A model generated the notes under the pieces. It was given only the letters and a program-made list of their open reading frames with translations, was not told the origin of the DNA and made no database searches. A stretch of 64,000 nt of DNA, from NCBI GenBank assembly GCA_963556255.1, contig OY744604.1:73543130-73607129 (forward strand). Reading direction: 5' to 3'. The DNA is from Allolobophora icterica. Taxonomy: Eukaryota; Annelida; Clitellata; Crassiclitellata; Lumbricidae. Within the stretch, counting starts at the first letter, position 1, and each line of letters starts with the position of its first letter. Shown here piece by piece: positions 315 to 55,770 of this stretch. Position numbers and translations under genes: made by a program.

Positions 315-393
315 CTTGAGCCTCGATTTTACCAATGCTGGAGACAACAAGAAGCAAAGCTGAGTAAAGCGGCCTCCATTTATCGAATGCCAT
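315..393 (-). CDS. Gene E exon 1: signal peptide of a mucin-type receptor paralogue (partial gene)
   Basis: Reading minus from ATG at 393, 26 codons begin MAFDKWRPLYSALLLVV and end in KIEAQ, followed by one base and a GTGAGT donor (complement at 309-314). A short basic N-terminus and hydrophobic core are typical of a secretory signal peptide. Length (79 nt), phase 1 and sequence match gene C exon 1 (MAFDRWTLL...DIEAQ at 26784-26862). I see no second exon between 1 and 314, so the rest of the gene lies beyond the left edge. That it encodes a mucin-type receptor is inferred from the gene C match. Confidence 0.6.
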
Positions 394-2460
394 CGCTTAG
401 GAGAAAATTCTGAAAAAGCAAAACGAAAAAGTACAAATTATTAAATGCCAGTGTAATAGTTGAAATGTATTACAAGAGTGTGCGCAGTAAAATGATTATG
501 TTTGCATTCTAAAACTCAATTCTTTCGAGTAAAGTAAATCGAGTAGGCATTATAAGTCTCTTCAACCAGTAGTTGTTAAAGTAACCTTGTGTGCGTTGTG
601 ACCTCTTAACTGCAAAGGCATTTCAATGATCCTGAATCATATCGTAACTTCTACTATGAATGTCTTATTCTGAAAACATACAAAACGAACTCGATAACAG
701 TACGACATGTAAGGTCTACCCGTACTGGCTACCAAATCGTTGTAGTAAAGATTGTTGTAGTGCAGCACCAACAATGTAATTCTAACAGCAACATTTACTC
801 TGTTGTAGACTAGAGCAAGGCTAGAACTAGTCAAGGTTTCACAGTCAAGTAGGCCTACATGACGGACTTGATTAAACTGATTATGTGAGATCTTACAAAC
901 GCACACACACACACACATACACACGCACACCCAAAACACAATCAGTTTATCACGCATTCAGGTCAAAGTCCAGAAGATCAGTCTGTTGTAATAAGACATT
1001 GCAATCTTGAAGAGGGTATTGACAAGATATGTGATTTGTAACACTTCAACGACAAACGTGGACTAAAAGCCACTGGGAAACCAATGCAGCTCGTCGTTAA
1101 ATTGTTAAACCAATGTAGCTATCCAGTGTGATTCCCCTTACAGATTTTAACTTAGTTAAGCTACAGTTATAGCTAATGGATTTTCATTTTAGTTATCGTT
1201 GCAGTTATAGTTAGTATTATTGGTTAGTTATAGTTATAGTCATAGTCACTGGATTTTTACTATAGTCACAGTAAAAATTTAGTAAATATAACCACAACTT
1301 TAACTAAAAAATAAAGCTAACTATAACTGTAGCTATAACTGAAATTGCAACTGAAGAGAGACCTACCGGCATAAACAACTCTCGTGTGTATTTATGCCCA
1401 GGAGGAACTGACTGACGACGCCCGACCCAGGAGCAGGATCTTGAATTTGATTCTTTCCTCAATAGGGAAACAGTGAAGCGTATGCCCTAACTCTCATTTT
1501 TATATGATATTATTATACTGTAGCAGCTCCTATAAAACTATGTATACTAAGGCGCCACCTTGTGAGATCAACTTGACAACAGACGAGTTGCTATTTATGT
1601 GCACAAAGAACACTTACGTAATTATAATCATATCTAGGCCTACTAAAATTATTATTCTGTTTTTTGCTTTGTCTGTTTTACTGAAAAATTCCCAGTTACT
1701 TCTTTACTGACCTATATTCTTAACTTCTTATGTTGTACTACCTATTTACATACTTATTACTTAGTTTCTTATTCCCATGCTTACTTCTTTATTTACCTAC
1801 TTGTTTGTATTCAAGCCTGTCTATCTATCTTATCCTCTAATCTTCCTACCTACTTGCATTCGAAACTACCTACCAGCCAACCTATCTTCTGACTTGCATA
1901 CTTATTTACCTATATATTTGCATACTTAAATTACTCAACTTCCAATGCCTACTTATCTAGAAACTTAACATAGGCCTATAGGTCCTAACAAAGCAGCATG
2001 TGTACATATCGTTTAACATGCAAATTTTAAGATTAAAACTGGAGTCGAGAGACTGTAACACAAAGAATCAGACCTAGTGAAAATATGAGCTACCTCAATG
2101 GTAAAATACAAAGATCTTCTCCACAGTCACGATTTGTTCTGTGCATTTAAATAATATGCTTGTGTCGTTTGTGGCTGTAAACAATTAAGTAGTGTTTGTG
2201 GGCATCAAGGGTAGACCACTTGTGAGAAAAGCATTGAATGTGTATGGCGGCGTTGTTCTTGAGAGGTTTAAGACATCACAATTCAGTCACCTGTCTGAGT
2301 CGTTGAATGTGTATTTCTAGCGTAGGGCCTATGTATTGGCAAAGTAATCAATCGATCGTTTGCAGTATTTCCAGCATAAATTGCTGGGCCCTCCATTTGG
2401 AATTGTCTTCCTTTAGAGATGCAAATGCTGCCCAGTAGTAGTGGTTCCTGTTTAACCAGT
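394..2460. other. Intergenic: upstream flank of gene E and downstream flank of gene A
   Basis: No coding exon is recognised. It holds a (CA)n tract near 899-931, an inverted-repeat segment at about 1150-1352, and a stretch around 1960-2260 that is clearly similar to 28660-28930, where it lies upstream of gene C. The DNA just above the gene E start is also similar to that above gene C, so any promoter should lie in the first few hundred bases above 393. No TATA box stands out. Confidence 0.5.
1150..1352. repeat. Inverted-repeat segment built of AGTTATAGTTA units
   Basis: The left half repeats GTTATAG/GTTAG on the plus strand and the right half repeats CTATAACT and TAACTATAAC, meeting near 1262. 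This looks like a decayed foldback element. The composition resembles the hAT-like MITE at 57722-58268, but no clear terminal repeat or target duplication was found. Confidence 0.4.
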
Positions 2461-2464
2461 GAGT

Positions 2465-2815: not shown

Positions 2816-2834
2816 TTAAACACTGCTATTTAAC

Positions 2835-3060: not shown

Positions 3061-3164
3061 TAGGTTCTCCCCTTCGCAACTTTAGGCATGTGGAATTGCA
3101 TCTCTGAGGCGACACTGTAAAGACGACTATTTGCTAAGACAGAATTTGAAGACATGTCTGTGTC

Positions 3165-3696: not shown

Positions 3697-16710
<13,014 letters not shown>

Positions 16711-23850: not shown

Positions 23851-26800
23851 TCATGGGCGTTTTCCATGTGCATCTGGTGTAATTGTTTGCTTATTTAGGT
23901 TTTCATAGATGGATTCAGGACGATTATCGGGGCTTAAATTTTGATATAGATGTGCATCATCCCCTTCGCTCATACGTGAGGTATCTCCCGAATGACGGTT
24001 TTGCGTCGACACATTTTCATACAATGATCCAGATGAACTAGGCATTGTAGAATAATCATTGGTGGCATTCGTGCCCTCCACACAATCGGCATCTACAAAA
24101 GCACACAGTCGACTCCGTATTGCGCCATGTATCTGAATTTCGGACGAGGTTCTTTAGTCTAAATTCCTTGGTTTCTCGGGATATTTTAAACTGTAATTCT
24201 AATTCTTGCAAGAAATATTTATAGCACCGTTTCCATAGAAACAGTTCGTCTGAATGATTTTAAAGTTCATCAACAATAAAACGTTTATCAATAAGCAAAC
24301 AGTTCTCAGAGAACCATAACAATCACAAGTGGCTGGCTCCCGCAAACTCCTAGAGCCACAACTACCATATTCTCATCCAGAGTCAATAGTTGAAACTTTG
24401 TTCATTGTAATTGTAATACAACTAATTTCTATAGACTCTTAGGAAAGATCTTTATGAAAACCACACAGAATAGGCCTATTAGTGAAGTATGTTCTACATT
24501 TTTGATTGGTTATATATAGAGTAATCTCAATAGCTTCTTAGAACTGTACCATTTTTTGGTCTTCGTCTGTATCGCTGGATCATATAAATTGCTGCCAGTA
24601 CGATATAGCCAAGGATACAGATCACCAAAAACGTTGTGACCACAATGAATGGAACATCATCTACACAATTTTGGACATCAAAATATTAAAATATTACTTA
24701 TATCAACACTGTTATTGGCTGAAATATTTAATAATACCGTATTACAACTTATGTCTATAACATGTGGCGCTGTTAATGAAGACTGAGCTTAATGAATGTG
24801 AAGTTTTCATTAATCTCGTTTAAATTAAAGGCGGCCATAATGATTTCCGGATCTAGTGGCATGACTTAGTGAATATTGAGTAATATAATATCGAGAAGTG
24901 TTAAGTGTTTATAAGGCATCATGAGTTGACTCTTAAATATTTTAACGCATTTATACCTCAAAATCACCGTTTCTATTATTGCGATGGTTTGCTGCATCTC
25001 GTAAACTACTGTAGTAAGTAATATTAGTTGATAACAGTACTAGGGAAAAAGGAATAGAATGGACAACTTCTTTTTGCATTTTTTTTATGTCACAATACTA
25101 TGCAGTAATGAAAGATTACCCGACTGTTCACAGAGGCATGCGGTTGTCTCGACTGGAGTCACTGAAAAACCAAATCAGACTCTAACAAGACTCGTACAGT
25201 ATTACACAATATGTTATTTTCATTTCTTAAAGTTTCTAATGCGTTTTGAATGTTGCAGATACAAATTTATAGTAAATGATGAAGCAATCCCACTTAACTT
25301 TCAGAATGAAACTGCTTCAATAAAGTTATAATCCTGCGAAGGTAAATATAAATTTCTTCAGCTGATTCCACTGCAAAAGGGGTTGAACTGTTGATATCTG
25401 ACTATTTCATCAAAGCACTGGCATAGTAATGCAATGTGTTACAGTAAATGCATTCTGTATAACCGAAAATGAATCCCAGATAAGTAATGTTTGGTCTTTA
25501 TGTACTGTAGAATAATTTTAGTTACTAGGCAAATGGCAGAGGTAGACGCTGTAAGAGTGTAAGTGGAATATAGGAACCCAAAACGCAATATTTCAACTTC
25601 GGTTACATCGATATCTTTTAGAAAGTAAACATGAGTTTAAGACATGGCAATGAAATAACGATAGCTCAAAATATATAAGAAAATGTAGATTTGTGTAACT
25701 TAAATGGTTAAAAAAACTAATTTTAGCTAAGTCATATTTAGGTTTTTAGAATGAGTTCATGTAATATGAACAATGGTAAACTTTTTACCAGGCGTAGTAG
25801 TTGCAGTCGAGATCTTTGTGGTAGGGTTAGTAGTGGTCGATGCCTTTGTGGTAGGCGTGGTAAGCTTAGCAGTGGTCGAGATCTTTGTGGTAGGCTTGGT
25901 TACTGTAGTGGTCGAGATCTTTGTGGTAGACTTGGCAGTGGTCGATATCTTTGTGGTAGATTTAGTAGTAGTTGAGTCTATAGTTAGAAAATATATGATG
26001 AAAATACCCAAAACGATTTATTCTTACTACCAGTGATTTTTCACTTACCTTTGACAATGTTATTATTTGTGTTGTTTTTCATGATATACAGTCCGGTTTT
26101 GCACTTCCAATTGTCGATTAAGTTAGTTTAACATGTGCAATGACCGAGAAAACTCTGCTCAAAAGTGTATGAAATGATAGTTACATACAAGAAGTTATAT
26201 GTACATTCCACAGCAATAATGCTTCATACTGAGAATAAACTATTCAAGATTTAGGGAACCGTAAAGTTAAGCAGTACATTGAACTATGGCCTAGAGGAAG
26301 GCCATAATGCTAACGAATTCCTTTTGTTAGACTGGGTGTATGAGGGCGTGTAGCAAGTCGTCTCTCCTGTCGTCTGATCTTCTCACCGACAGTGTACGTT
26401 CATTGTCTCATGGCTTATGTCTCATGTACAGTCATTGTCTCATGGCTCAGTTCGCTAGAGATCGTTAGCTCAATAGCCATTCCGAAATAGCTTTCTTCCC
26501 AAGAGGAGATTTTAAACAACGTATCTGGGAGAACAATTCACCATGCTAACCTAAAAACTATACGTACCTTTCAACTATAACATGAATTCTTTTCATAATT
26601 TAGTTTAAGCAAAGTTCCCACGAACTGAAAGAGGAAAAATTATATTTGTCTGAGTGAAAGCTCAGATGTTCTGTACACGATGTGTTTAAATTAATTTAAT
26701 TTATTAAGCATTGATTTGCACGTGGACAATATTATGAATAGTTTCAAGCGCTTCACGTGTAGACGCAGATTGGTGTTACTCACTTTGAGCCTCGATATCT

Positions 26801-30885: not shown

Positions 30886-31889
30886 CTACATAAAAAATGC
30901 AACAATGTGCCCATTATTCATCATACTTGTTTAAATAAGGAACATTAAAAATATTCAAAACTAATCTTACTTTTGTAGTTAAGTTGATAGGCATTTTAAA
31001 ATGGTGACCCTTTGTATTGGATCATTTTGATATTAATTCTCAAATAGTAAACTGCAGTTCATCGTCCATTAAGCTTATAACAGCTGATAATAGGGTAAAA
31101 AAAACTTGAGTCACAGTTTAGGAACGTGAAGTAACAAAATACCGTCTTGTGATGTGTTCGATCTCCCTCTGAATTGCTGTATAACGTAGTATAATGCTAT
31201 AGCGATGTATCCAAGAACGCAGATCCCCAACAGCACAATGAGTATAATTACCGCGACATCTAGAGGCAATATAGAAATATGCAGAGTCAACATAGACAGC
31301 ATAGATGGCTATTTTGGTTGATCAAAAACGATGAGTATAATAAGAAAGTCTAGAGGCGTATTCAAAAGTTAGAATCTAGGATTATATTTTTCATATATAG
31401 GCCTAAAAGTAAACGCCAAAATTGAGTTTGCCCCTTGGGATTATGCCAGTCTTTGTCAATCTCGCAGTCGCCGATCTATTGTAGTCTAACATTTCAAAAT
31501 TTCTAGATTAGGCTAATTGTAAACTGAAGTAGTCGGTCAGGCTTTAAGCTGTAATATTTCAAGGTTCAAAATAGTTCTGTTTTTGTATGCTTCTATGCAC
31601 TATTAAAATATTGTAATGGCTCTTGAAAATAAAAAATTGAATTAAAATATTGCAGTTCATACACGTGCTTAGATAAGGAAAGTTCAATATCGAGAGTTTA
31701 ATTTCTTCAGTTTACGTTTATGCATGAGAAAATTTTTGTAAGAAACTCATATCTAAGCTTGACTACCGGTTCCACGATTCACAGTGCTAACAGTTAACAG
31801 CACCTACGTGGAGCATGTATATCCACACTAAAAACAGCGAGAGAGAGAAAAAGAGAGGGGAGAGAGGAGGGAGAGACAGAGACAGAGAC

Positions 31890-31978: not shown

Positions 31979-34900
31979 CTGACACTAGATTTGTTGTTTG
32001 GTTTGGAACAAGTTTGCTTCAAAGTAATGTATAAGCTGCATCGACCCACATGCACACACATATATCATCTTTCATAAAAAGATTGAATGTAAGCAGTTTC
32101 AGGATTATAATATTATTGGCATGGTTAATTTGATTCAGAATTGTAATTTATATTGTGTTCCTATAAATCCCAATTCCTAAACTGCGAACGTCTTCAACGG
32201 AGCTTACTTTTTTGATGGTTCTGAGTTCATTAGTTTAAAAAAGTGTTAGAAGAAGAAGAGCAGTCCCTTAAGCCAGCCCTGAGGCATCCATGAGCATGAT
32301 GTGTTAGCGACGGCACTTTCTTAGCCTCATCATATGAGGGCAGAAGGCCAGTTCTTTCCCTCGCCGTCTCATCTTCCCACCGACAGTGTAAGTCAGTGTA
32401 CTCATTATAGTTGAGTTGGCTAGGGGGTGCTGGTGGAGCAGAAATCTCGAACCACATTTCTGCCCTGGCGGAATTTTAACCCCCGACCTTTCGATCGACA
32501 GTCCAGCACGCTAACCACTACACTATAAACAGTCTTGAATATAATTATGTCAAACATATGCAACTCTAACTTGTCGGATATCGTCCTGATTTTGAGTACG
32601 ATTTCACTTAAGTAAGCATCGACTGATAATTAATTCATAGCATTAGATTAGTATGGATAACTGTAAGTTATGGTATCAGTTATCATAGCAGCTATTGTAT
32701 TGTAATAAAACACTTGCCAGGCTCAGTAGATCTAGGGGCGATTGATGTTGTGATAGAAGAAGAAACTAAAACAGAAAAATGAAAAATGAAACAGAACATA
32801 GGTCATATTTGCAGTATCGTATTTGGCATTTGGGTAAAATTTTCAGCACTACTTATAATTTCTAAGTACCGGTACGTGCGACTATCTTGAACAAATAATA
32901 TGTAACAAATCTACAAAAATGAATCTGCGGATGGTAAAATTATAGACGAGTACACGCTACCGGTTAGTTTTCCGAAACAAATTAGAGGCGAGTATAAGGT
33001 ATACGGTATTTTGTGAGTATACGCTTCAGTATTTTAATATGAATAAATATAAATATTTTGTGAGGTGAGTATGCTGTATCTAGATGTGAGTACATGCTGT
33101 ATACCCGCGTATACCCTCGACTACAGCCCTGATCATGCTACGCAGAATGAAACCGAATGACAGACCGAATGAGGCAGACAGACTGACAGATAATTACATA
33201 TCTGGCCAACCGACGGTTCTCGCTGCTGTAAAAGTGTGTGCATTGCGGTCTTTTTTACCGAAGAGGCAGGAGACGTGGGTCAGTGCAGATTCATGCGTGT
33301 TAAAAGGTGAGAGAGGCGAAGGATCATATACAGTTAGAATCGTCCGTCACATCTAGTTAAAATCAACAGACTTCAAAGAGAAATATTATCCCTTGACTAT
33401 CACAGAAGGGGAACGGAGGGGGGGGTTAACACAGTTGGAAATCGACAGCCGTGATACTTCAAACAGAAATTTCGGCTCTCCGCCACCACAGAAGGGGGAG
33501 CGAGGAGGGGTAAACGCGATTCAACCAGTCGATTACATTACGTCACAACTGCACACTCGTCGCCCAGTCGAGATGGATCAAAGAGACCGGTCTCGCACAC
33601 TCGACGATCAATAGCGGTTGCCAATGGCGACGATTTTTCCCACAACGCAGTTAAATTTTGGAAGAGACACGATTAAGTTTTCGCTACATAGCTTATAATT
33701 AATTTAGTCCAAATAATTTACCGTTTGGAGTAACGAAATACTGAAGTCTAAATCCGCTTCGAACGTGTTTAGTACCAGTATGAAACCAAACCAATACTTG
33801 ATTGCAGTTGTTAATGGAAACTGGCATTGGAACAGCTGAACCACAATATTTAGGTAGCATGTAGTTAGTGTAATCGCACCTGATCTGCATTTCAACAGAT
33901 TATAATTATTATATCGGATAAAAGTCGTGGAAAAAGAAAAGTCAGGTTATCAGTATAGGTTGATTTTTGTTTCTAAAGGTGCATACTTATTCTTAACTTA
34001 ATACTGATTAGCGTTGGCGATAATAATTAATTAACAATATGCCATAATAAATTAACCATCCAAAACCTTTAAAGATTAGGCCTACTAAAAGTTGAAAATT
34101 AAGAAACCTCAAGTTCAAATAAATATGCATATTTTTGGCTAAAGTTGTTCGCGTTTTGTCTAGAGGGTTATGGATAGGCTAGAATATAATAGACGCACTG
34201 TCGATATCTTTATTCATTCATTCCATGCTTCTTTAATGCACATTATATTTTGGTCCAGAGGAATGCCCCTAATAGACTAACTAATTTGAAAAATGTGTAG
34301 CAACAGTTTACTGTTTAGCGGCGTTGTGATAAAAAGATAAATACCGTTCTCCTCCTTAATCCAGGCTTTGGACTGGCACCACTCGAATACAACAGTGGCG
34401 CAGTTTAAACGCAAATAATAATTAAAGCTCTTCCTGATATATAATTCTCACCTGTACAAAATCGCATCCGCACGAGCTACATGGTTCCAAATCGAATGCT
34501 TGGAAAATCAAAGTAAATAAACTTGGCTGTGATGTCCATATTAAATAGGTGCAGTTCTCGTTGTTACTGTACGATTGCGGATAATTTGGTGACATTATAT
34601 TTCCAGATGATTCTGTGTACACAGTGTTACCACAGCCTAGAAATACCAATCAATTCCAGATCATAAGTACTGAAGTATTTAAGTTATTTGTATTACCTAA
34701 GTGCATTGCAAATGTTCAATAAAACGCAAATGTAGGTTTAATTTTCTAGTCAGTCTCGTTTACAATTAACCACCCTTTAGAACTCACATTTTATTAAAAC
34801 CTGAAACACACTGAAAGTTACGCAGAAGGGTACTAAAAATTGTCTGAGTAGGAAACAAAAACTCAAACCTAAAACCAGGTGTGAGTAACACAGGAGTGAC

Positions 34901-37900
34901 GGAGGAATAGATAAAACTATCATTGGAAAAGTAATCGGTATCATCATTTTCAAATAAACACACGAAAACGAAGCTTTACTGCACGCGTCAAACCAAGAAT
35001 TATACTACGCTTATACTGCACTTTAAAGATGTCCAAGATAAACAGCAATCATGAGGTTAGTGCACAGAGGTCGGGAGTTGCACAGTTGCTCCGAAAATGT
35101 GCCTTGGAATGACATTCTAAATAAATTTACCGCCAGTATGCGACCGTACGTATGGAACTTATGTTATTAGTTTCTATAACGTACGTACGGTACGCGCACG
35201 TTATTATGCCGCACGTCGGCGTACGATGACATCAGTTCATTACGAAAATAAAATACATAACATCATGCACACGAAAAGTCAATAACAGTTGGTGACTGAC
35301 GGTTGTAAACAATTTTAACCATTACATCAGTTCAATGATCTCAACTTTAAACTTTTAAATTCCAATTTGCTATTATTCCGTATAATGTATAATATGAAGA
35401 TAATATCGATTTTGCGGCACACTTTATAGGATGGTCAATGCCAGTGGTCGTTTTATTGGTAATACTAAATTTCGGTATCGTTCGTAAATAATTAGGCCTG
35501 CGTACGAGGAGACTAATACTGCTGACCTATACTTATTATTTTTAACGTAGGCCTACGGTACGCGTGCGTTATAAGACTATAGGCCCTAGTTATATTTGAG
35601 GTTCTTTCTGAATGATCAGATTAACTTGTGGCATTTTTAACGTACGCGTATGGTACGCATACGTAATTTTTTTCGATAACGTACGTACGGTACGCGGACA
35701 TTATTCTGGTAAGTAACGTACGGTCGCATTTTGTTTACCGCTGACCGTTACTCAATATTAAAAGACATGAATTGCTATAATCTTTATCTAATTTTCGGTT
35801 AACGGAAATTGTTGCTACTTACCTATGGTGTTAACCTGATACTGAATTCTGAATCCTCTCACTGAATACATGTTATAGTTATCCGATTGAAAGTATAATC
35901 GTGCAGAACGACACCAAGGGATCGATATCGGAGTAGCAACGCTATTCCAGTAATACGTTCTTTGAACGTAGCTACTGTTGCTCATGCAACTGACCTGTTT
36001 CAAAAGACAATATACGATCAACGTTTTACAAGATTTAATGACCAGGCTGAAGTTAAGGTACTGTAATCATTCAATTCTTGGAGGTAGTTTAACATTTTAT
36101 TTCAGTCTGTCTAACGCTGTTGTTGGAAAACCCTTGTCGTTAGCACGATTAGATTCCTTAGCTTGTTGGACCTCAGCCGTCCTAAATGAAACGCCGATGC
36201 ATCGACTATGCAAAACAGAGATTCGGCAATTAACGCCTTGCATTAATTCACTTTTCGAATTGACCAGTTGTTTTCGAAAAAGAATTCCTGATCGTAATCG
36301 TAAGCTCCAAAATTTCTTCAGCGATAATTAAAGGGCACCAGCTTATTCACGAGCGCTGCATTGTCTCAAACGATTATCAAAAGATAGCAAAGATTGCAGG
36401 GGAGACCAGAGCGAGAATGAGGAAGAGAAGCTGCTGAGACAAGTTTCGTTTAGAACGAGAAAGACTGGAAAGCGAAGGACTGGAAGACGAAGGATTGGTT
36501 GTGTCCGGGTAGGAATTCCTCAAGAGTTGAGACCTTAATTTGGAGTGCAAAGCCTTAAGGGTGATATGTAAAGAAACCAGAGGCAAATGATGATGAATGA
36601 GCAGCGATATTGATGGAGAAAAGGAGAACTTGCAGAATTCGGGAGGGAGATCGTTCCAGAGTCGAGGTGGCGTGATTTGCTGATCGGCTGGAGAACTTGA
36701 GGTGAGTGGTGACTGGGATACCGGAACGAGTGAAGTAGGACGATGATCGAATAGAGCGGGGTGGCAGGATGGCGAAGGGTTCGCGAAGATACCTTGAATG
36801 GGAGTATTGTAGGCAGTTAGAGATTAGCGATATGACTTTTATGTTGATACTGTCTTTGATTTCCAGCTAATGGAATGAGGACTGAGCGTTGCGTGAGTTG
36901 CATAAGGTTAATTTTGGTGGATTCATAGTTGAAGAAAAAGAAATTATAGTAATCAAGCTCGAGGTGGACAATGGACAGTGGTTCTAAAAAATATATCGCA
37001 TGCGGCTGAGGTCACACATTTATTAGTGGATGAGATTCATTCTTATATAGCATAACCCTCCATATTCAAGGAGCCTTAGATTAAATATCTTAACAATTGT
37101 GTCATAGTAGATGCAACTCCTAAAATAGGGGAGATCGGGGTTGGTTGCAACAGGGGTTGGTTGCAACACCCTCGCTAGCTAAGCGCTATGTAATAGCAGC
37201 GTGAAATTAACTCGCCTCACATGTACGGAATAGCTTTTAGGTCAATATGACCTAATGTGCTTGTAGGTAATTGATAATGGCTACATAAAATAATTAACAG
37301 TTTTTTCGGCAATCAAAGTAAGTTTCCTGGCTTTGTTTTCTTTCGTAATGTAGCTGAATGTTGTGGATCAATTCAAAGTGGTTTGGTGTCATAATTGGGA
37401 CAAGGAATTGGGCTTCAAAATGCATTTAGCCATTTTATTTAAAAACAACGCTGTCGACAAAAATTTTCATAACAATGTCTATTCATTGCTTCGGGGTTGG
37501 TTGCAACATTTTCAATGGGGTTGGTTGCAACATGTTGCAACCAACCCCATGCATTTGTTTCAATAAACTGTGTTCATGTGCTCGCCACAAGTAGGGCACA
37601 TTATATTCAAATATTATATGCATTGTACTAATTGGTACTAATTGAATTATTTTAATCATGGACGCGCTCTAATCACCTAATCTTTGCATTTTGTTAACCT
37701 AAATACTACCTGTGACCATGAGAAATCATGAACGAAAAACTTATCGCGGTTCTCCTAGTAAAGAAACAATTATGGATGTAGCGACAGAAGTTATTGATAA
37801 TGGAGCTTGTCTTAGACAGACTGCAAAAAGTCAAAATGCCTCCAATGTTTGTTTTTCCGCGACTTAACTTCAGAGAACATTTTATAAGATCGGCCGGCTG

Positions 37901-40850
37901 TATCGGAGTCGCACATCCCTCCGGATGGATGACGTCATCTTTATGAGACATTTTATCAAACAAGTTAAACCAAGTTTAGATCATCCAGTCCTTTTGCTGA
38001 TGGACAACCATAACACGTTACAATCAATGCTATAGATCTCTGCAAACAGAACGGTGTGTTGGTACTGACGTTTCCTCCACACTGCTCTCACAAAATTCAG
38101 CCCCCGCTTGACCGCAGCGTTCACGGGCTCTCCAAGAAACATTTCGATATTTCTGGAGTAACTTGGATGAAAAATCATGCTGGGATTAACATGACAATTT
38201 ATGATTTACCAATAATTGTATCTCAATCCATCCCAAACTCCATAACATCGTCTAATAAACAAGCGGGGTTTCGGGTATCTGGAGTGAGGCCATTCAATGG
38301 ACAGTTTAATATTTTGATTGATGACTTTGAAATATTGAATTTGTTAAGTTTGTAACATTCTTTCATGTAGGCAGGCTTCAGTATGCAGCCTTAGTTTAAT
38401 AATTAGACTACTTTCAATACTGTTGCAACCATCCCCAGGGCTGTTGCAACCAACCCCGGTCCGGGGTTGGTTGCAACACTTTGAAGCCTTCTGTTCAATT
38501 AGCGATTGTGGGCACATGTTTTGTCACGGAGACTGTCACCATAGCCTGTTTTGGTGCCGAGATGTAAAGGATATATAAGGGCTAAACTGGTTTTAGGTTG
38601 TTCCAAGAATAAAAAAAAATGTAACAACAAATATGAAATTTGTTGCAACCAACCCCGGTCTCCCCTACAGTTCTCAAGCTCGTAAGTATAACATCAAGTG
38701 TGTAATATTATCTTATCTAACAATTTGCAATAGAAGCCTCTTATTTCTATTTATAACACGCTTGTGACGATCTTAAAGATGGATGAAATATATAAATAAT
38801 AATGAATGAAATACATCAATAAAGAGCATACTATATTAACGGAGTCTTGGCCTAGAAATATCAAGGTCCGTCTAAGTTCAGTCAGAGTAGAACACATTAC
38901 AAAACGTTACACATGTATTTTGTATCTAGACATTTTTAAAGCTCCTCTCGCAGAATAACTATTCGGAGGCGCTCTCAGCACAGAAGCCCCGGGGAAACAG
39001 AAATGCCTTTAGGGAACGCGAGACCGATGCGGAAAAGCCAGTCATTAGTTTGGCCCTGAGCAGAGGGGGAAGGTCATTCCAGATCCTGGGCCCCACTACA
39101 GCAAACGCCCGGTGCTGGGCCAAGGCAGTTTTAGCCCTGGGAACAAAAAGATCAAGCCGATTTACAGAGCACTATGGGCGAGAAGACGCAGATAGCGCTT
39201 TTCGCAGATAGTACGAGAGATATTTCGGGGCAGTAGGCTCCTGAGATTTAGAGACAAGGATCTTATATCGGATGCGCGCAGCAATAGGGAGCCAGTGAAG
39301 GACATCAAGCATGTAAGTAGAGATATGGGCAAATCCAGGGAGTCGAGCGATGAGCCTAGCAGAAGTATTTAGAACAGATTGCAGAGGGGAGAGACGCTGC
39401 TTGGGGAGACCCAGTAGGATCGAGTTGCAGTAGTCCTAGCGTGAGCAGACAAATGCGTGAACTATGGTGGTAAAGACAGAGGGTGAGACCGAGCGTCTAA
39501 TGGCCCTGAGACGCCTCAGTTAAAAGAAACAGGAGCGAGTCATGTTGGAGATAATGCTCTGTGAATGTGAGGGAGGAGTCAAGTGTGACACCCAAGTCGC
39601 GAGCGGTGGAAGAGTAGGTGTACGCAGGAAATTTCTCAGTCAGCAATGGAAAGTTGAGTTTAGCAAGCTGCTGTCTAGTCCCAAACCAGATCAATTGAGA
39701 TCAATTTATGGGTCCCTATTCTCTTGTATTAAAACTGCCAGGTTCTGTAGGGTTTCTAGAACAAATGTATGAATATTATTGAAGCATTAATAATTGCAAG
39801 TAGCCTACAACTATCGAATAGGTCAATAGGACATAGCCCTTAAACACATGCAATTTATAGTCAACCAGACTGGACGAAGGTACTAAAATCATTCGCTAGG
39901 TGGCAGTCAGGTTTATTAACGGATTAAAGAGGATTATGATCTCCATGGATGAATTTCATCCATTAATAAGTGCAGGTGTGTGACAGGTTGGATGTCTCAG
40001 AAAATTGGATATTGTGCTTTTTCTTTAGACATGCAGTTTATATTTTCACTTTTGTCATCATATATATTTTCACTTTTGTCATCATCAATTCCAGAATCAA
40101 ATGCGTAGTTAAAAGTTAAAAACTCACTGTGATATTATCGCCTGTAGGTGTACTCCTATCCAGTTCAAAAACCTCAAACGTTAACAAAATGGAGCTGCTG
40201 GTGGTAAGCGAAATGGTGTAATTATACTGACAGTTGTTATTATAGACATTAGGATAGTTTGGAGACAGCAGAACTCCACTGTTCGCTGTGGAGCTGGAAC
40301 TTCCTCCGCAACCTATTCAAAATACATATTAGCGGTGTAGCAAATTATATCAGTTACTTAGCTATTCGCGCAGCGCATTTAAGATATGAATAAAAGACGC
40401 TACGTAAGTATTTTCGTACAATTTCACATGCATTCAGTAATAGCTCAAAGAGCGTCGCATAAAGCTGGTTATAAAGTCATATAGTGCGTGGAACTGAGCT
40501 GAAACTGTTGCTGAAATTTATACATTATTTTAACAGAATTGAATTTTAGAATACATATGACTTAACACGGACGACCAGACTCAAAGAAACAGGTGGTCAT
40601 GTCATTTTCAATCTTGGTTTTTTTGGGATAATTATAACAGCAAACATAATATAAGGCCTACAGCTGTTATTTTATTGTTTGGTTCCTTAGCCGCTAGCAG
40701 ACCCTATTTAAGAAAATTGCCATGAAAATGTAATGATTTCATGCATATTTATGACCACGGTAGTCACAATTACTTACTTTCAACCTTCAGTTTAGAAATA
40801 ACATCTCCGAAGAAAAACACCACCAAGAACAAGAATGTAAGGCTGGTCAT
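30653..40850 (-). CDS. Gene B: two-CUB type I receptor with tyrosine tail, 8 exons, 391 aa
   Basis: Exons, minus order: 40778-40850 (signal peptide MTSLTFLFLVVFFFG); 40128-40312 and 35823-35994 (CUB1); 34452-34636 and 33722-33884 (CUB2); 32718-32765 (16-residue Ser/Thr stalk); 31143-31259 (TM, LLGICVLGYIAIALYYVIQ); 30653-30885 (tail). The sum is 1176 nt, exactly 392 codons. Phases are as in gene A. It is the paralogue of gene A but lacks CUB3 and all three following domains. Its stalk intron uses a GC donor (complement of GCAAGT at 32712-32717). Tail motifs are PVYYHY, HTYEYL and GFYDSI, ending EPSA like gene A. The 4.1-kb intron inside CUB1 holds a pogo element and LINE pieces. Function is unknown; receptor-type signalling is inferred. 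Confidence 0.86.
31845..31977. repeat. (GA)n microsatellite
   Basis: A purine-only GA tract of about 130 bp, with GACAGA variants at the left end, in the gene B intron between the stalk and TM exons. Leu/Ser frames across it are artefacts. Confidence 0.95.
32240..32528 (-). mobile_element. SINE-like repeat with tRNA-related end
   Basis: Reading minus, it begins TATAGTGTAGTGGTTAGCGTGC (box A-like) and has GGTCGGGGGTTAAAATTCC (box B-like). Part is shared with 26285-26415. It lies in the gene B intron between TM and stalk exons. Confidence 0.55.
32922..33132. mobile_element. hAT-like MITE, copy related to 44736-44958
   Basis: Shares GGTAAAATTA, CTACCGGTTAGTTTTCCGAA and GTATACCCTCGACTACAGCC with 44736-44958. 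The right terminal repeat CTACAGCCCTG is intact and the left is degraded. It lies in a gene B intron. Confidence 0.7.
34315..34405. repeat. SINE-like repeat, short copy
   Basis: Third copy of the 2835/12176 repeat. Same position relative to the first CUB2 exon as in gene A. Confidence 0.45.
35134..35733. mobile_element. 600-bp hAT-type element with perfect 8-bp target duplication
   Basis: The left end CAGTATGCGACCGTACG and the complement of the right end CAAAATGCGACCGTACG form 17-bp terminal repeats with 2 mismatches. TTTACCGC flanks both sides (35126-35133 and 35734-35741). The interior repeats AACGTACGTACGGTACGCG-like palindromes at about 35180, 35545, 35640 and 35680. Gene A at about 13265 has the empty site (ATTTATCGCTGACCGC). 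No transposase is encoded. Confidence 0.9.
36330..36990 (-). pseudogene. CR1/L2-like LINE 3' fragment
   Basis: The minus strand contains WNDLPPEF (complement near 36640-36665) and SLHITLKALHSKLRSQLL, the WN-LP...FK-LK ending of LINE polyproteins. The region 46995-47880 is a relative: both contain AGGGCACCAGC..ATTCACGAGCGCT-like 3' ends. It is inserted in the gene B CUB1 intron. Confidence 0.65.
37128..38665 (+). mobile_element. Internally deleted pogo/Tigger-like DNA transposon
   Basis: Flanked by TA on both sides (37126-37127 and 38666-38667). The terminal repeats are GGGGAGATCGGGGTTGGTTG (left) and GGGGAGACCGGGGTTGGTTG (complement of the right end). The plus strand encodes a pogo-type helix-turn-helix start (37720, MRNHERKTYRGSPSKETIM...CLRQTAKS), then a deletion and a stop. 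After that comes the end of the DDE domain: PVLLLMDNH near 37985, LTFPPHCSHKIQPPLDRSV near 38060, and GFRVSGVRPFN near 38265. The GGTTGGTTGCAAC motif recurs internally in both orientations (37490-37560 and 38405-38480). It is a non-autonomous copy in gene B's CUB1 intron. Confidence 0.88.
38935..39700 (-). pseudogene. CR1/L2-like LINE fragment
   Basis: The minus strand has WFGTRQQLAKLNFPLL and STARDLGVTLDSSLTFTEHY, the post-RT segment, then degraded frames to AGGCGCCTCC near 38960. It resembles 23205-23818. It lies in the gene B CUB1 intron. Confidence 0.7.
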
Positions 40851-48060: not shown

Positions 48061-48088
48061 TACAATTTACTAAAGGCCTGTGCGACCC

Positions 48089-48318
48089 TTAAATACAGCT
48101 TTCTTTTGTCTTTGCTTGCTTGATGAGGGTGTCATAGATCGGCTGAGCATGTTTAACAGGGCTCAACTGTGTATACAGATTTTCATCATCTTCGTGCGTA
48201 TGTAATGAATTTCCCGATTGACGATTTTGCAATGGAAAATTTTCATACAAGGATCCAGATACAGGAGGCGTTGTAGTATAATCATTAGTGGTAATTGTGA
48301 CCTCCACACTTTCAGCAT
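48089..48318 (-). CDS. Gene D last exon: tail, behind a disrupted acceptor
   Basis: Reads DAESVEVTITTNDYTTTPPV, SLYENF, NLYTQLSPVKHAQPIYDTL and a stop, clearly homologous to gene C's tail. The AG at 48319-48320 survives as part of a 5-bp duplication, but the bases upstream now come from an inserted LINE and are not pyrimidine-rich. Whether this exon is still spliced in is uncertain. Confidence 0.65.
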
Positions 48319-51300
48319 CTGGCCCGCATGTCTGGAACGGTCTTCCTTCACCTATTCAGGAAACCAAAAGCATTTATGTTTCAAAGGAACAGTACTTGCC
48401 ACGTAACTCCGAGCATAGAGTGTGTGTATGTGTTTGTTTGTGTGTGCGTGTGTGTAAGGTATCCTAGAAGTAGCTTGCTACCGACGACGTTATAATATAT
48501 AGCAGCAGTGCTTTTTTCTAGAGAAAAGGTTCCGGAACTGAACAATAGGTTCCGGAACAGAACAATAATGGAAGGGCTAAAATCCAGAGGGAAACGGGAT
48601 TGGAGGTTGGGAGGGGTCTCAATAAATACTGAAAACAGTTCACAACACTGAAATTAAATTAAAATACTAAATTATTGTTTTTATTATTAAACTAAATAAA
48701 TTATTATTTAGTAGCTGAAAAATGTGCCGGATCGCTGTTCCGGCGCGTGTTCCGGCTGGAAAAAAGCACTGTATAGGAGTTTTATAAATTGTTGTAATTA
48801 CATTACATTACATCTACAAAAGCACACAGCCAACTAGGGCCTACGTGTTGAGCCTTGTAGTTGAATTTCAGTCCAAGGTGTTTGGTTTCTCGGGACATTT
48901 AAAACTGTAATTCTAACTGTTACAAGAAATATTTATAACATCGCTGCCATAGAAACAGTTCTGAATGATTTTAAAGTTCTTCGACAATAACACGTTCATC
49001 AATAAGCAAACAATACTCTGAGATCCAGAATAATCACCAGTGGCTGGCTCCCGCAAACACCTAGAACCCAACTTTTATCCAGAGTCAACAGTTCATACGC
49101 TGTACATTGTAATGCATTAATTTCTATAAAACCTTAAGAAAGATCTTTAGTACGTTCACGCAGAATATTAATTAAGTGTTTTCTATACTGTTCAAAGGTT
49201 ATGAAGAGTAATCTTAGTAGCTTCTTAAACTGTACCATTTTTCGATGGTGTTCGTCTACATCGCTGGATCATACAAATTGCTGCCAGTACGATATAGCCA
49301 AGAATACAGATTACCAAAGACGCTGTGACCACAGTGAATTGGAAATCATCTACACAATATTCAACATCAAAATATCAATTATTATTTAAATGGAGACCGA
49401 CTTAATGTCAACAATACTGTTCGCTAAATAAATGAGGATATTAGAACTACTTATATCCATAATATTCTGCGCTATGAATCAAGATCAATGGATATAAAGT
49501 TCCGACGAATATCAGATAAACTCGGCCATAATGATTTCCATGTTTAGCCGCATGGCTTAATGATTATAGCCAAGTACAGTAGGCCTAATATATCGAGAAC
49601 TTTCCATGCTTAAAAGGCTTTTAAGGTAACCCTTAAACTTTCTAACACAATTTACCTATCAAGTTAGGGCTGGCTTTAAAAAAGTCTCTTTTTGCGGCTG
49701 TCAGTTTCCTAAAAATGCGTCTCACCGACGCCAATATGTGACAGATTTTTTAACATAATACTAAACTAGCAATCAATGGCACTTCTATAGAGACGACCAT
49801 CGCTGCCTTTCGCAAATTACTGTAGACAATTCTAAGTATAGTTTATTACTGTGCTAAGGGAAAATGAATGGAATGTGTGACCTGCTTTTTGCGTTTCAGA
49901 TGCTCCAACCAGTATGCAGTAATGAAATGAAATATTAAGTTTCTTACCCGATATTTTACAGGCGCATGCGGTTGTGTGGATGGTAGTTACTGAAAACGAA
50001 ATATATGAAAGTCAAGGACGTTCATTTCAAGAGATAAGTAAAGTTATTCCACTTCACTTTCATGATAAAACTGGTTCAAAATAAAGTAATAATCTTGCTA
50101 AGATAAATGTAAATTTATTTAAATGTCTCCAATGCAATAGAAGTGGTTAATAGTTAAACTATTGGCGTGGACGAATTTACCAACGTATTGAAAATGTAGG
50201 CCTAAAGTAGTTTGTAAAGTAAAACTTAAAGAGCGAATTAATTCCGGATCATGAAATTTGATTGGCAGATTTGCAACGTTTGATAATTGATGCCTAATGA
50301 GAATAATTACTCGGCATATGCGAGAAGTATTGTATAAAGATGTCTACCTGTTCCATTAGATGTACTGATTCCTGTCGTCATCTCGAAAGTATACGCTGTG
50401 AACGGAACAAAGAAACATAAAATGTATAATACGTTGTATATATTTTGAACTGCGGTTACTTCAATATCTTTTTTATAAAAATGGATTTTAAGACATCGTA
50501 ATGATATTGCGATACCTTAAATTATATATGAAAATATAGATTTGTTTATGCTTATATGCTTGACAAATCTTAATCAACCTATATGCTTGAAAAATCTAAA
50601 TTAACCTACAAGTCAGATTTAGATTTTAAAATGAATTCATATATTATATACGGTGGTAAATTATTTACCAGGCGTCGTAGTTGTAGAAGTGATCAAGGCC
50701 TTTGCGGGAGGCTTAGTAGTTGTAGTAGAGATTGATGGCTTCGTCGTCGTAATAGGCACTGCAGTTAGAAAATACGTTCTCAGCTAATCAACACGTTTTA
50801 TTTCAGTATCACTGGCCTTACAGTTATCAGTGCGTTGAGAATGTTGTTGCTTGTTGAACTAATTGTTTTACGTGATACAAAGTTTGCTACTGCACTTCCG
50901 ATCATTGGTGAAGTAAGTTTCTTATGTGTTAACACCAAACAAAACATTTTGAAAGAGTAAAGAGTATAAAGTTGCGTTTGCATTCTGGAAGTGTCTTCTA
51001 GTGCTCGCATGGTAGTTCAATTTTATCATTTAGGCTTTCTAAGGTCACTCTGCATGATGACAATTGATAAGTTCTTAGTACGCAACTGATTCTGCCAGCA
51101 AGCAGTGAGCCTTGGTAAAGAAATCAGCTGGTAAATAAACGATATCTACTGCGAATCACTGGCCCGTGTACAAGGACTTATGATTGTGGGTATAAACATA
51201 ATTACAAGACAATGAAATTAACGCATACCATAAGCTCCAATGTGAAATTGAAAGATTTTCTCTAAAATTAACAATTCTTTTTCGTGCTTCAGCTAAAAAG

Positions 51301-54300
51301 AATTACCAGGTTTAGTGGTTGTGAGGACGGTCGAGGTCTTTGGAGTGGCAGCAACTGAAGAACACACAAATAAAACACACTAGGGCCTATAGTAGAAATG
51401 CTATTTTAGCACATGGCCATGTTCCGTTAATAATAGTCTCTCCAGTAGTCTGTAATCAGTATTTAAATTCCATATCTACATATTTCTTTTCTGCAATACA
51501 TCTTAGACAACAATAATAGTTACTAATTAGAATCACCGTGTGTACATCAAGATCATAACTGTCGAAAACTTTTTATTTTATTATTTTCAACGGGGGGACA
51601 ATGAAATGTGAACGAGGTTTAATTTTAGTGATGATGAATGAAATACATGTGAAATTGGTCTAAAATACTCGCCGGGAGTATTACCCATTGATTTCCATAA
51701 TGGACTCAAATACTTGTTCTATATTAATATTACCACCAGGTTTGGAAGTTGTTGTTGTAAATGAAATGTTTTTGGTGGAAGAAACTAAAGGAAAAACAAA
51801 CGAAAATCTTATCGTTTCACTCACACTACGCACAATGCGCGAAATACGCCAGAAAGTATAAAGTTATAATGTTGAAATTTACTATTTTGTAACATAATAG
51901 ATTATCCAGGCCTAGTGATTGCAGAAAAAGTAGAGATTTTCGTGATAGAAAAAGCTGAAATTAGAGTGCATGCGGTTATTATATTTGCATTAGTGTTTAT
52001 TTTCGCAAAATTAATGAATTTGTCCTGTTTTCACATGCTTATTGTTTTGGTTAGTATTATCCTTCTAGTGTATTAAAATTCTTACCAGGTTTAGGAGTTG
52101 CAACTGTTATCGATGACCTCGTTGTCGTGGGAACTAAAGCAACAACATGAACTAAAGTTTCTTATTTTATTTCTGCATTGCTGCACACAACTGCAAAACA
52201 TTATAATTCTTTTATTATGAGCTATATAGGCTCATACATATACAATTCAGTTAAATAAACATCTTGGCTAATGCACATGGCGAACATTTGTATTGTAAAC
52301 CCTCTTGGCTCTTGAATAGTTCAGCACATATATACTGTTGAATTTAAATTAACGATTGGGTGAACATTTTTGGCACAGTATTAATTTGCAGGTTAAGTAC
52401 TAAGCATGACAGACTATATTTAGAATAAACCACTGAGCTTGTATACACTTATTACATAGTCATAAATCGAAATCTAGCTGAATCAGATTTAGATACACTA
52501 TGTTCTGTGTGAAGGTATTTACCAGGCCCAGCAGTGGTAGGAGTGGACGAGGTCTTTGTGGAAGGCTTAGTAGTGGTCGAGGTCTTTGTGGTAGGTTTAG
52601 TAGGGGTCGGCATCTTAGTGGTAGGCTTAGTAGTGGTCGAGATCTTTGTGGTAGGCCTAGTAGTGGTCGAGATCTTTGTGGTAGGCTTAGTAGTGGTCGA
52701 GATCTTAGTGGTAGGCTTAGCAGTGGTCGAAATCTTTGTGGTAGGCTTAGTAGTGGTCGAGATCTGTGTGGTGGTAGGCTTAGTAGTGGTCGAGATCTTT
52801 GTGGTAGGCTTAGTAGCGGTCGAACTTTTTGTGGTAGGCTTCGTAGTAGTCGAAAGCTTAGTGATAGTCTTAGTAGTGGTCGGGATCTTAGTGGTGGTAG
52901 GCTTAGTAGCGGTCGAGATCTTTGTGGTAGGCTTAGTAATGGTCGAGACCATAGTGGTAGGCTTAGTAGTGGTCGAGGTCTTTGTGGTAGGCTTAGTAGT
53001 GGTCGAAATCTTAGTGGTAGGCTTAGTAGTAGTTGAAATCTTAGTGATGGGCCTAGTAGTGGTAGTGATCTTTGTGGTTGGCTTAGTAGTGGCCAAGATC
53101 TTTGTGGTAGGCTTAGTAGTGGTAGTGATCTTTGTGGTAGGCCTAGTAGTGGTCGAAATCTTAATGGTAGGCTTAGTAGTAGTCGAAATCTTTGTGGTAG
53201 GCCTAGTAATGGTCGAGATCTTACTGGTCGGCTTAGTAGTAATCGTAGAGCTTGAGAGCTTCGTCGTACTTGAAACTGTATTCACAAAACATATAATAAC
53301 AAAACTCTAATCAATTTATTAGTAGTGATGTCTCAACAGGCAGCGCGTTGACAAACGTTATTATTTGTAACTGGTTTGCATAAAATACTCTTTTATACGG
53401 CACTGCCATCAATATCCATAGAGTACAAGACACAAGAAATGCGGCTTCTGTTGAATGAAATTCAGTTAAGCGAACTGATATGAAGAGATTGGTGAGTTGG
53501 AAAATAGAAAATTAATAATATAATAGAAAAGAAATGTCCCTGGTCATGTGAACTTTTCTTTTACGCTCTTCTCGATCATTGGTCACTTCCAACTAATGAA
53601 TATTAGTAACCAATGACGTCACTGTAATGGACGTTCGATTCAAACTTAATTCTACGTAAATTTCAATATACCGTAAAATGACTGCTCTTTTAAACCAGCG
53701 GATTCAAACAGTATTAAATTACACTAATTTACTTAAGTGGAGAACGAGCGAACGAAATTACATTTTAAAATTGTTCTATGCCGTATTTAGGACGGGCAAA
53801 GATCTTCCCGGCTTTTCGCCAGGTGGCGCCACGCATACGTGAACAATATTATTATTACTATTGGGACTATGTTACGTTAAGTTTTCCCAGGGTCGCAATA
53901 AGGCTAGTGCGGGCCCCAGTGCTGTGATTACCTATATAGCCATGAGCGAGGGCTCAATTACAAGTACAACAAATAATTTAAAGTACTTCGGAAAATCCGG
54001 CCCCTCAAACTGTGGGCCCGGTTGTTGCAGCACTCTTAGCACCCCTGAATGCGGGCATGAGTTTTCTTTTAATGACTCACATTGGAAAATTTTCAAATTG
54101 TTTTATATCGTCTTAGGACGGGAAATCATTTAGTATTAAATAGTCGGCGATTGGTAGTTCAACAATTATAGCATTCGGCCTTCGGAGCTTACTCTGTGCA
54201 ACGACACTTGCTAAGGTTCTTTGCACACAGTGTCTCTATCACAAAGAAATGCAACGTGGTAAACATATAAGCTGGAAAATAAATGACAGTTCCTGCAAAC

Positions 54301-55770
54301 CACTTGTCTTATGTACATGGCCATAATGATTCGTGATTTTAGGCAAAAATGTATAAGAAAAACAGCTCATTTTATCCTATATTTGAAACCGTTATTTTAG
54401 CTGTATATGAGGGGTTTAGCATAGTATGATAGGTTGTTAAGTCTGTACTAATGCGAGCCACACTATAGAATACGTTTTAAGTTTCTGTAAATAGACGCTG
54501 TATCTCTGCACCGTTAAACCTTACCAGGTTTGGTTGTTGCAATGATGTTCGGGATTCTTGTTATCGTAGATACTAGCAGAGAAAATAAGTGTAAGCTGCA
54601 TTTGAATGTTATTTACCTACAGCTAAATCATTATTAGCTACTTTTATGCCAACTACTCATGGTCACGCCCTTTATGCACGTGTAGACTAGCAGTTGTATC
54701 GGAAAATGGACATTTAGATCGACTTAGTTGTAACACCATTAAGAAGAAGTTAGGAATGGAATTGATAGGTCGTGTGGTTCGTATGGAAATAGATATAAGA
54801 CCGAACCAAATGATAATGGGGATACAGAGAGGAATAGCAAAAAGAGCGGGCAGAAAATCATCAAAGACGATGTGAAATGCCTGGAGAATGGAGATGTCTA
54901 GGGATTAGGCAAGCAGCCTGGCAATAAACAAATAATGAGCGGCATGCATATGAAGGATTATATTAACTAGGCCTAAACATTAAGTTGTAACATGCATCTT
55001 TTAGCGTATTTGAGTGCACAAAAACTCTTGGAAGCTGTTCTGATTTGAAACGTTTACCTGGTTTCAAAGTTGCAGCCTTTGTTGCGTTAGTATCTAAAAA
55101 AACAATTCAGTTGTCAAATACGAATTGTATTTAGTTTTTTGAATTGACATTGTTTAAAATAATGTGCAGGTCACATTAAAAAATTATGATAATGGTAAAA
55201 TAAATATTGATGACATAATTCGAATCTATTGCATTCAGTACAATGAGAAATTTATTTTTGATTGTGCTACAGAAACCGAATATTTAATTATGTTAACTTC
55301 ACCCAAATGCGTGTAAACTAAAGTAGTTTAGCTAAAGATTGTCGCAATCTGGATGATATAAGGATGCTGTTGAGCAATATTATTTCTGAAAGAGTGTCAA
55401 GGACAGGATGTTGTAAGTCAGCAATGCAGCTTTACAGGATCATAATCGGCTGCGTGAAGTTTTGGGAAACAGCCATAGACAACAGATTTTTACGTGGAAA
55501 AATTATCTAAATTGACCTAGTTCTGAAAAAATTTAATATGCACAAGGATCCGATATCTCGTAAAACATGCAATCTCTACAATCGCGTTAAAAATATCTGC
55601 AGTTAAGTAGCTATTTGATGATCTGAAGAAAAACTGACTAAATACTTTCAGATTTTTAAAGCATACAGGCTATGTTATCTTTTTGACTTACTTTGTGTAT
55701 GTATTGACCCAGCACATATTGCAAAGACGATTAAAGCTGAGTACAGGAATGTCCGTTCGTTAGATTCCAT
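48089..55770 (-). CDS. Gene D: large mucin-type receptor with tyrosine tail, 13 exons, about 543 aa
   Basis: Exons, minus order: 55692-55770 (signal peptide MESNERTFLYSALIVFAICA...HTQ); 55058-55093; 54525-54572; 52523-53275 (251-residue Thr/Lys/Pro stalk); 52086-52133; 51907-51954 (donor damaged); 51737-51784; 51307-51354; 50669-50758; 50348-50395; 49948-49989 (TTACAC); 49236-49349 (TM, VICILGYIVLAAICMIQR); 48089-48318 (tail). The sum is 1632 nt, 544 codons. Every junction is phase 1 and six exons are exactly 48 nt, so any may be skipped in frame. Tail motifs are SLYENF, NLYTQL and PIYDTL, with YxxL-x9-YxxL spacing as in gene C. A LINE insertion sits at the last splice acceptor and may remove the tail (see findings). 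The stalk should be O-glycosylated. Function is inferred from architecture only. Confidence 0.76.
48321..48815 (+). mobile_element. LINE fragment inserted at gene D acceptor, with nested hAT MITE
   Basis: CATCT flanks the insert (48316-48320 and 48811-48815). The plus strand encodes HVWNGLPSPIQETKS, the WN-LP end of a LINE polyprotein, then a (TG)n stretch near 48420-48458, and finishes with an (ATTAC)n tail at 48796-48811. The intron sequence CTACAAAAGCACACAG, which abuts the exon in gene C (24088-24108), resumes at 48814. Confidence 0.78.
48506..48771. mobile_element. hAT-type MITE
   Basis: The left end CAGTGCTTTTTTCTAG and the complement of the right end CAGTGCTTTTTTCCAG form the terminal repeats. 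The flanks TATAGCAG and TATAGGAG match at 7 of 8 positions. GGTTCCGGAAC motifs repeat inside. It is nested in the LINE insert of gene D's last intron. Confidence 0.85.
49948..49989 (-). CDS. Gene D 42-nt cysteine-pair exon
   Basis: Encodes VTTIHTTACACKIS. The gene C counterpart (25120-25161) encodes VTPVETTACLCEQS. Size, phase and the TTACxC motif are conserved while the rest varies, so the cysteines likely matter, perhaps for dimer formation next to the membrane. Confidence 0.75.
51907..51954 (-). pseudogene. Gene D 48-nt stalk exon with lost donor
   Basis: The acceptor CTAATTTCAG and 48-nt phase-1 frame (AFSITKISTFSAITRP) match its neighbours, but the donor reads GATAAT instead of GTAAxx. 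Probably skipped. Skipping keeps the frame. Confidence 0.65.
52523..53275 (-). CDS. Gene D mucin stalk exon, 30-bp coding minisatellite
   Basis: 753 nt, phase 1 to phase 1, acceptor GTGAATACAG and donor GTAAAT. About 25 tandem copies of a 10-residue unit close to KPTTKISTTT (variants RPTTKI, KPTSKI, KPTTTQIS). It is an extended, basic, O-glycosylatable stalk. The 30-bp unit (GGTCGAGATCTTTGTGGTAG on plus) is likely length-variable. Long plus-strand frames over it are artefacts. Confidence 0.85.

Follow-up and report, generated by a model that had tools for sequence, protein, structure and literature searches.

A tandem array of predicted CUB and immunoglobulin-domain receptors with spaced tyrosine motifs in the earthworm Allolobophora icterica

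The Alr genes of Hydractinia form a 41-gene family that includes Alr1 and Alr2, and the oyster protein CgIgIT2 combines five immunoglobulin (Ig) domains with a transmembrane segment and an immunoreceptor tyrosine-based activation motif (ITAM) (PMC11999971). Draper carries EMI, NIM and EGF-like domains and signals through Src42a and Shark (PMC8092387). Graft rejection, together with short-term memory, has been documented in earthworms (PMC2248247), and a search of titles and the starts of abstracts in open-licence PMC returned, among the matches listed, no paper on a receptor family behind this rejection. The same search, with the same scope, returned no description of the CUB-Ig family reported here. 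We analysed a 64,000-nucleotide stretch of the A. icterica genome (hereafter the window; C3:73543130-73607129, where C3 is contig OY744604.1, in a 1.12-Gb genome of 328 contigs) and its surroundings. The window, in which we distinguish five genes (A to E), is the 5' edge of a 0.75-Mb tandem array of CUB-Ig receptor genes.

Compared with Hydractinia Alr, whose ectodomain has V-set and I-set Ig domains without CUB, the array ectodomain starts with two or three CUB domains, has a module without Pfam match between its Ig domains, and is followed by a YxxL-x9-YxxL tail. With CgIgIT2, the array has in common a lophotrochozoan origin, Ig domains, one transmembrane segment and an ITAM-type tail, but it differs in its CUB domains, its tandem copies, and a spacing of x9 instead of that of a strict ITAM. 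Array proteins would also resemble Draper and MEGF10 as single-pass proteins whose tyrosine tail recruits a tandem-SH2 kinase; unlike these, they combine CUB with Ig domains and are multigene. Neither EMI nor EGF-like domains were detected in A, B and C, the three proteins scanned with Pfam (E ≤1). By sequence, the CUB domains are like those of cubilin, neuropilin and C1r/C1s, proteins of other architecture to which the matches span only the CUB part of B. In the vertebrate KIR and LILR clusters, receptors with signalling tails lie next to receptors without motifs. The array is predicted to mix the two kinds likewise, although here the tail differences consist of tyrosine loss or truncation.

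All five first exons lie on the minus strand, and genes A to D were rebuilt whole from sequence, with splice sites and with reading frames open from ATG to stop, in agreement with the initial annotation of the window. Internal exon borders are AG acceptors and GT donors, with a GC donor used twice (A Ig1 and B stem). Modules join at phase 1, as had been noted, and the halves of CUB domains join at phase 0. A shared first exon of 79 nt and phase 1, ending in AQ, had also been described for A, C, D and E; its length and phase hold in all four, but the D leader ends in TQ. Exon 1 of B has its ATG 6 nt further downstream and is accordingly 73 nt long.

Gene A encodes 801 residues. Its leader (exon 1, 16632..16710, minus strand, as for all exons of A to E below) is followed by three CUB domains, every one encoded by a pair of exons placed by exon rebuilding and Pfam (first, a, and second, b, halves at 15280..15467 and 13559..13730 for CUB1, 12308..12492 and 11219..11381 for CUB2, and 10585..10763 and 9162..9324 for CUB3). 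Next come a V-like Ig1 exon, in which four cysteines are kept in six members (7942..8259), the conserved exon X (7204..7533), an Ig3 exon (6369..6614), a stem exon of 30 nt (5289..5318), a transmembrane exon reading ICVLGYIVLA (4663..4782), and a single tail exon with PPVY and then YEHL-x9-YDSL (3697..3929). The three CUB domains match Pfam PF00431 with E 6.7e-43 (145.9 bits against a cut-off of 21.4). Of the three Ig-type exons of A, Ig1 and Ig3 stand, in that the whole protein passes Pfam for Ig_3 (32.4 bits against 30) and Ig_2 (28 against 27), with matches of either as a single exon below each family's cut-off; the middle exon, X, matches no family. Searched alone, X gave no Pfam match and a single match in a PDB profile search, which at E 0.63 is noise, yet it is conserved in three neighbours at 51–58% identity. 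A's last intron also contains, on the plus strand, an inverted piece of the second-half exon of a CUB3, interrupted by a stop (4110-4208).

The same exon order, on the same strand, recurs within 150 kb to the left of the window. There, genes G and I carry the whole chain CUB1-CUB2-CUB3-Ig1-X-Ig3-TM-tail (TM, transmembrane), and E, J and K are partial: in these 150 kb, Ig3, TM and tail were not found for J, and X, Ig3 and tail were not found for K. Searching the genome with the J Ig1 exon (best 150 of 552 candidates scored, 22 of the 150 rows falling in the array) yielded 21 loci with 66–100% identity and E ≤4e-31. They all map to C3:72.80-73.55 Mb in minus-strand orientation, and 19 of them cover at least 102 of the 105 query positions without stops. 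A further array gene, M, has its leader at C3:73380853, and B belongs to the array as an Ig-less member. The 30 kb to the right of the window yielded only a low-complexity match; the window thus marks the 5' edge. The multigene recognition-type locus with tyrosine tails that had been proposed is supported by 21 Ig1 loci in 0.75 Mb, a shared leader and promoter, and a recurring tail spacing. Only the leader exon of E lies in the window (315..393, MAFDKWRPLYSALLLVVSSIGKIEAQ), and to its left follow CUB1b, CUB2, CUB3, Ig1, a TM and a tail carrying PPAY twice. In that DNA, which includes a stretch of N, no CUB1a was seen, and X and Ig3 were not found. These CUB/Ig exons rule out E as a mucin gene, as which it had been annotated. 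The gene order is hence CUB/Ig (E), CUB/Ig (A), mucin (C), CUB (B), mucin (D), and the strict alternation of two families seen initially breaks down at E and A, both of which are CUB/Ig genes.

To characterize the tails, 18 tail exons were compared, namely those of A to D, E, G and I, ten found by similarity to the G tail, and that of the protein P0001 (see below); the tails of pseudogene H and of a relic at C3:73391242 were excluded, and J and K have no found tail. The motif Yxx[LIV]-x9-Yxx[LIV] is present in 12 of the 18, and arises in 0–1% of shuffles (eight tails). In all 13 tails that keep both aligned tyrosines (the 12 motif tails and L035), mucin genes included, the two stand 13 residues apart, and in both gene classes this distance persists while the rest of the tail diverges. 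The tail of locus L042 (C3:72986146-72986835), which stands behind a TM and an Ig1 of array type, has a single uninterrupted frame with three complete YEPL-x9-YDTL units plus a fourth that has decayed. ITIM/ITAM-like or YxN motifs had been read in every complete tail; paired tyrosines are confirmed in A to D as YxxL/I-x9 pairs, but the inhibitory type (ITIM, immunoreceptor tyrosine-based inhibitory motif; [SIVLT]xYxx[ILV]) occurs in 8 of 18 tails, a frequency little higher than the 6–32% in shuffles of eight tails. Several tails also contain PPxY (A, E and G, the latter two twice each, L035 and P0001). PPxY is a ubiquitin-ligase signal, and YxxL is also an endocytic motif. The tails might accordingly direct traffic instead of signalling, as in cubilin-like scavenger receptors, and cubilin is the best PDB match of B. 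We regard this as unlikely: endocytic motifs require no fixed distance, whereas the tyrosines are 13 residues apart wherever both are kept, even in the mucin genes.

We lean towards the prediction that the array encodes single-pass CUB/Ig receptors of an activating recognition type, which would act through a Syk/Shark-type kinase via their x9 tails. Such proteins could be displayed on coelomocytes or epithelium, where their CUB and Ig domains would bind non-self or altered-self ligands. Ligand would then cluster the receptor, Src-family kinases would phosphorylate the tail, and the YxxL-x9-YxxL unit would likely recruit a tandem-SH2 kinase of the Syk/Shark type, with engulfment or cytotoxicity as the possible outcome. 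Motif-less members (E, I, L039, L041 and L043) may be decoys or non-signalling partners. On sequence grounds, the array genes are candidates for telling foreign tissue or microbes from self, and the array provides a mappable candidate locus for earthworm recognition, with concrete tail motifs.

Some results weigh against this prediction. Six of the 18 tails are without the x9 motif: L035 has W at +3, in L039 F replaces the second tyrosine, the E tail is without the first tyrosine of the pair, the I and L043 tails are short, and L041 is without the second motif of the x9 pair, its other pair falling within x6-12. Moreover, the ten tails recovered with the G tail are not an independent sample, because they were found by similarity to it, and the C tail showed no match to the G tail beyond shuffles (z 0.9). 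A strict ITAM (two Yxx[LI] at x6-8) was found in none of the eight tails tested and is ruled out, the recurring spacing being x9. Predicted folds were unreliable (predicted local distance difference test scores of 40 for exon X and 45 for Ig1). Gene H, situated among the left-hand neighbours, is a pseudogene with a decayed A-like TM and tail and with stops in its tail region, and K CUB3b holds a stop. Finally, the mean ratio of nonsynonymous to synonymous substitution rates (dN/dS) was below 1 in all seven exon classes computed, at 0.73 in the second half of CUB1, 0.74 in the second half of CUB3 and 0.33–0.48 in the other five classes. These values were computed among E, G, I, J and K for exon classes other than X and Ig3, with pairs involving A or B excluded, E absent from CUB1a and K CUB3b dropped for its stop; exon borders were picked automatically, and some donors are doubtful.

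Two alternatives bear on these same data. The stops in H and K, together with the A-like tail relic at C3:73391242, would fit a mostly decaying array, with a few working genes among relics and little coordinated function. This seems most improbable, given that 19 of the 21 Ig1 loci are free of stops and close to full length, that A to D are open from ATG to stop, and that dN/dS is below 1. The low dN/dS would also fit a pattern-recognition family for phagocytosis, functionally of the Draper/MEGF10 type, which would recognize microbes or debris only and play no part in distinguishing individuals. This alternative is a credible one, if somewhat short of an even chance; the PDB matches of the B CUB domains include cubilin, neuropilin, C1r/C1s and MASP, and ITAM tails serve engulfment in Draper and MEGF10 (PMC8092387). 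Tandem arrays with mosaic exons, however, fit allorecognition equally. Identity between array members differs strongly among exons: G and J share 93% identity over the CUB2 second half but 49% over the CUB1 second half. This unevenness suggests exchange between members. Relics of A type containing stops also occur inside the array (TM/tail at C3:73468600-73469320 and tail at C3:73391242-73391280), which suggests that A-type tails were once present further into it.

The product of gene B (391 residues) has two CUB domains, and the gene lacks an Ig exon. Its leader exon (40778..40850) is followed by the halves of CUB1 (40128..40312 and 35823..35994) and CUB2 (34452..34636 and 33722..33884), all placed by exon rebuilding and the CUB halves also by Pfam, and then by a stem exon of 48 nt (32718..32765), a transmembrane exon (31143..31259) and a tail exon with YEYL-x9-YDSI (30653..30885). 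Pfam PF00431 scores the two CUB domains at 109.5 bits (cut-off 21.4), and their PDB matches are to cubilin (the best), neuropilin, C1r/C1s and MASP. The TM motif ICxLGYIxLA, reported for A to D, is present in A, C and D, but B reads ICVLGYIAIA. The tail exons of A and B are 57% identical. Upstream of these two genes lies a common sequence of about 245 bp (from 16711 on in A and 40851 on in B) with 68% identity, and the A and B upstream regions aligned with none of eight other upstream regions tested.

A search with the B protein matched 17 proteins at E ≤0.001 (2,525 candidates). The sequences of four were examined, and the other 13, judged by name and Pfam domains, are procollagen enhancers and C1s. 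Among the four, P0001 is the sole relative with the same leader type, TM and tail, and P0002, P0003 and P0005 have only CUB domains in common with B. P0001 (288 aa, from a 1,317-nt contig) consists of a MAFD leader, CUB, TM and a YERL-x9-YETL tail, joined as would be expected of a spliced transcript.

In genes C (220 residues) and D (538 residues), Ser/Thr-rich exons replace the CUB/Ig part and are followed by a short TTACxC exon, a TM and a tail. Gene C consists of an array-type leader (exon 1, 26784..26862, MAFDRWTLLCLVFLLLVSSIRDIEAQ), a mucin-like exon (25789..25977), the short TTACLC exon (25120..25161), a transmembrane exon (24550..24660) and a tail exon with YQNL-x9-YENL (23851..24092). 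In D, the leader (exon 1, 55692..55770) precedes eight Ser/Thr-rich exons, all of phase 1-1, that span 50348..55093 with their introns; five are exactly 48 nt long, and one measures 753 nt (52523-53275). The short TTACAC exon (49948..49989), a transmembrane exon (49236..49349) and a tail exon with YTQL-x9-YDTL (48089..48351) complete the gene. A further Ser/Thr-rich, exon-like stretch within D (~51905-51955, minus strand) ends in GGATAA without a GT donor and is perhaps a dead stem exon. The domain search that had been recommended for these proteins found CUB in A and B and Ig in A, but no family over cut-off in C, which is mucin-like in composition and scored 11.3 bits for Pfam Mucin against a cut-off of 34.7.

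The relatedness of the two classes, as claimed initially, is upheld by TM exons and most pairs of tails. Likeness between TM exons across classes goes beyond shuffles (A-C z 13.9, B-D 9.7, A-D 9.1), as does likeness between tails (A-D z 13.5, B-D 9.5, A-C 8.4, C-L037 6.4, D-G 5.2), but the tails of D and L037 are weakly alike (z 3.6), and so are those of B and C (z 2.8, with 10 of 500 shuffles as good). Within the class, C's TM and tail are closest to those of D, and the tail exons of C and D are 49% identical. At its 5' end, C matches six array leaders (z 12–17) but not that of A (z 1.4), and its upstream DNA is colinear with that of E, G, K and M, though not of I or J. Upstream alignments were found in 15 of 45 pairs tested, with no match for the upstream region of D among the others tested. 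The 48-nt, phase 1-1 design is common to five D exons and the B stem exon. In comparisons of these exons with the B stem, at most 2 of 500 codon shuffles were as good for four of them and 14 of 500 for the fifth, and in comparisons with the 30-nt stem of A, 3 to 38 of 500 were as good. We infer from these sequence comparisons that C and D may be receptor genes minus their CUB/Ig part, with an amplified stem. Amplification of the receptor's own 48-nt stem exon could in this way have produced long-stalk signalling proteins or decoys.

The initial annotation had instead paired a CUB family with a mucin family, the CUB receptors working together with mucin-like ligands or partners. C and D do sit among the receptors, and their TM and tail exons are related to those of the receptors. 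Against such a pairing, E is a CUB/Ig gene, C has an array promoter and leader, none of 27 candidates in a protein search with the C TM and tail reached E ≤0.001, and the mucin genes look like receptor derivatives. The pairing is thus not supported as stated, and a working partnership of two families is improbable. Taken together, the observation of the initial annotation is partly confirmed, and its interpretation is partly supported.

Both cassettes of the array also occur elsewhere in the genome. In a CUB search (best 150 of 1,124 candidates scored), 39 matches fell in C3:72.80-73.55 Mb, 29 in C3:91.1-93.2 Mb, 22 in C1:61.88-61.96 Mb, 17 in C8:67.6-68.7 Mb and 7 in C1:96.7-97.0 Mb; one sample each from C3:91.9, C8:68.6 and C1:97.0 Mb gave CUB half-exons 31–54% identical to A or B. 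For Ig1, a second tier with 29–44% identity (best 150 of 552) comprised 69 rows in C13:45.2-53.3 Mb, 19 in C9:20.3-26.5 Mb, 15 in C4:51.97-52.43 Mb, 10 in C2:9.5-9.8 Mb, 4 in C1:89.9-90.1 Mb and 11 elsewhere. L049 (C13:46913500-46919500), the one locus inspected among the 69 C13 rows, carries, in array order, Ig1, a relative of X with 28% identity (E 1e-5) and a pair of Ig3-type exons. Because this Ig1-X-Ig3 order is repeated outside the array, the array appears, by sequence, to fuse a CUB cassette to an Ig1-X-Ig3 cassette that is amplified elsewhere. More speculatively, the two cassettes, each amplified by the dozen in separate regions, would have been fused in the 0.75-Mb array as activating receptors whose tails carry between one and three YxxL-x9-YxxL units, forming a modular lumbricid histocompatibility-type system and the genetic basis of earthworm graft rejection; we consider this extension doubtful. 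The large V-like Ig exon families on C13, C9, C4 and C2 are possibly a larger story than the array itself.

Neither Rfam, at its gathering threshold, nor a tRNA scan gave a match in the window. An open frame of 519 aa on the minus strand (19811-21370) has reverse-transcriptase-like sequence, and by eye we take it to be a non-LTR (long terminal repeat) retrotransposon. A second frame, of 236 aa on the plus strand (45205-45915), resembles the end of a piggyBac-type transposase. Outside the window, the mitochondrial contig (C328) has its genes on one strand, in the order of the annelid ground pattern, and a long tandem repeat (L014, ~12790-13240) between atp6 and nad5. Its COX1 translates well under the invertebrate code, with AAA as Lys at conserved positions, which argues against an echinoderm host. 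Among named records, its NAD4 is most similar to those of Aporrectodea tuberculata (86% identity), A. rosea (85%), Eisenia andrei (82%) and Lumbricus rubellus (82%), with two further matches ranking higher (89% and 84%); this places the host most likely among lumbricid earthworms close to Aporrectodea. On nuclear contig C8, pieces of mitochondrial COX1 lie side by side in both orientations (C8:61145195-61147845), and a 28-kb contig encodes a COX1-type oxidase without in-frame stops that is perhaps bacterial (C257:6513-7808).

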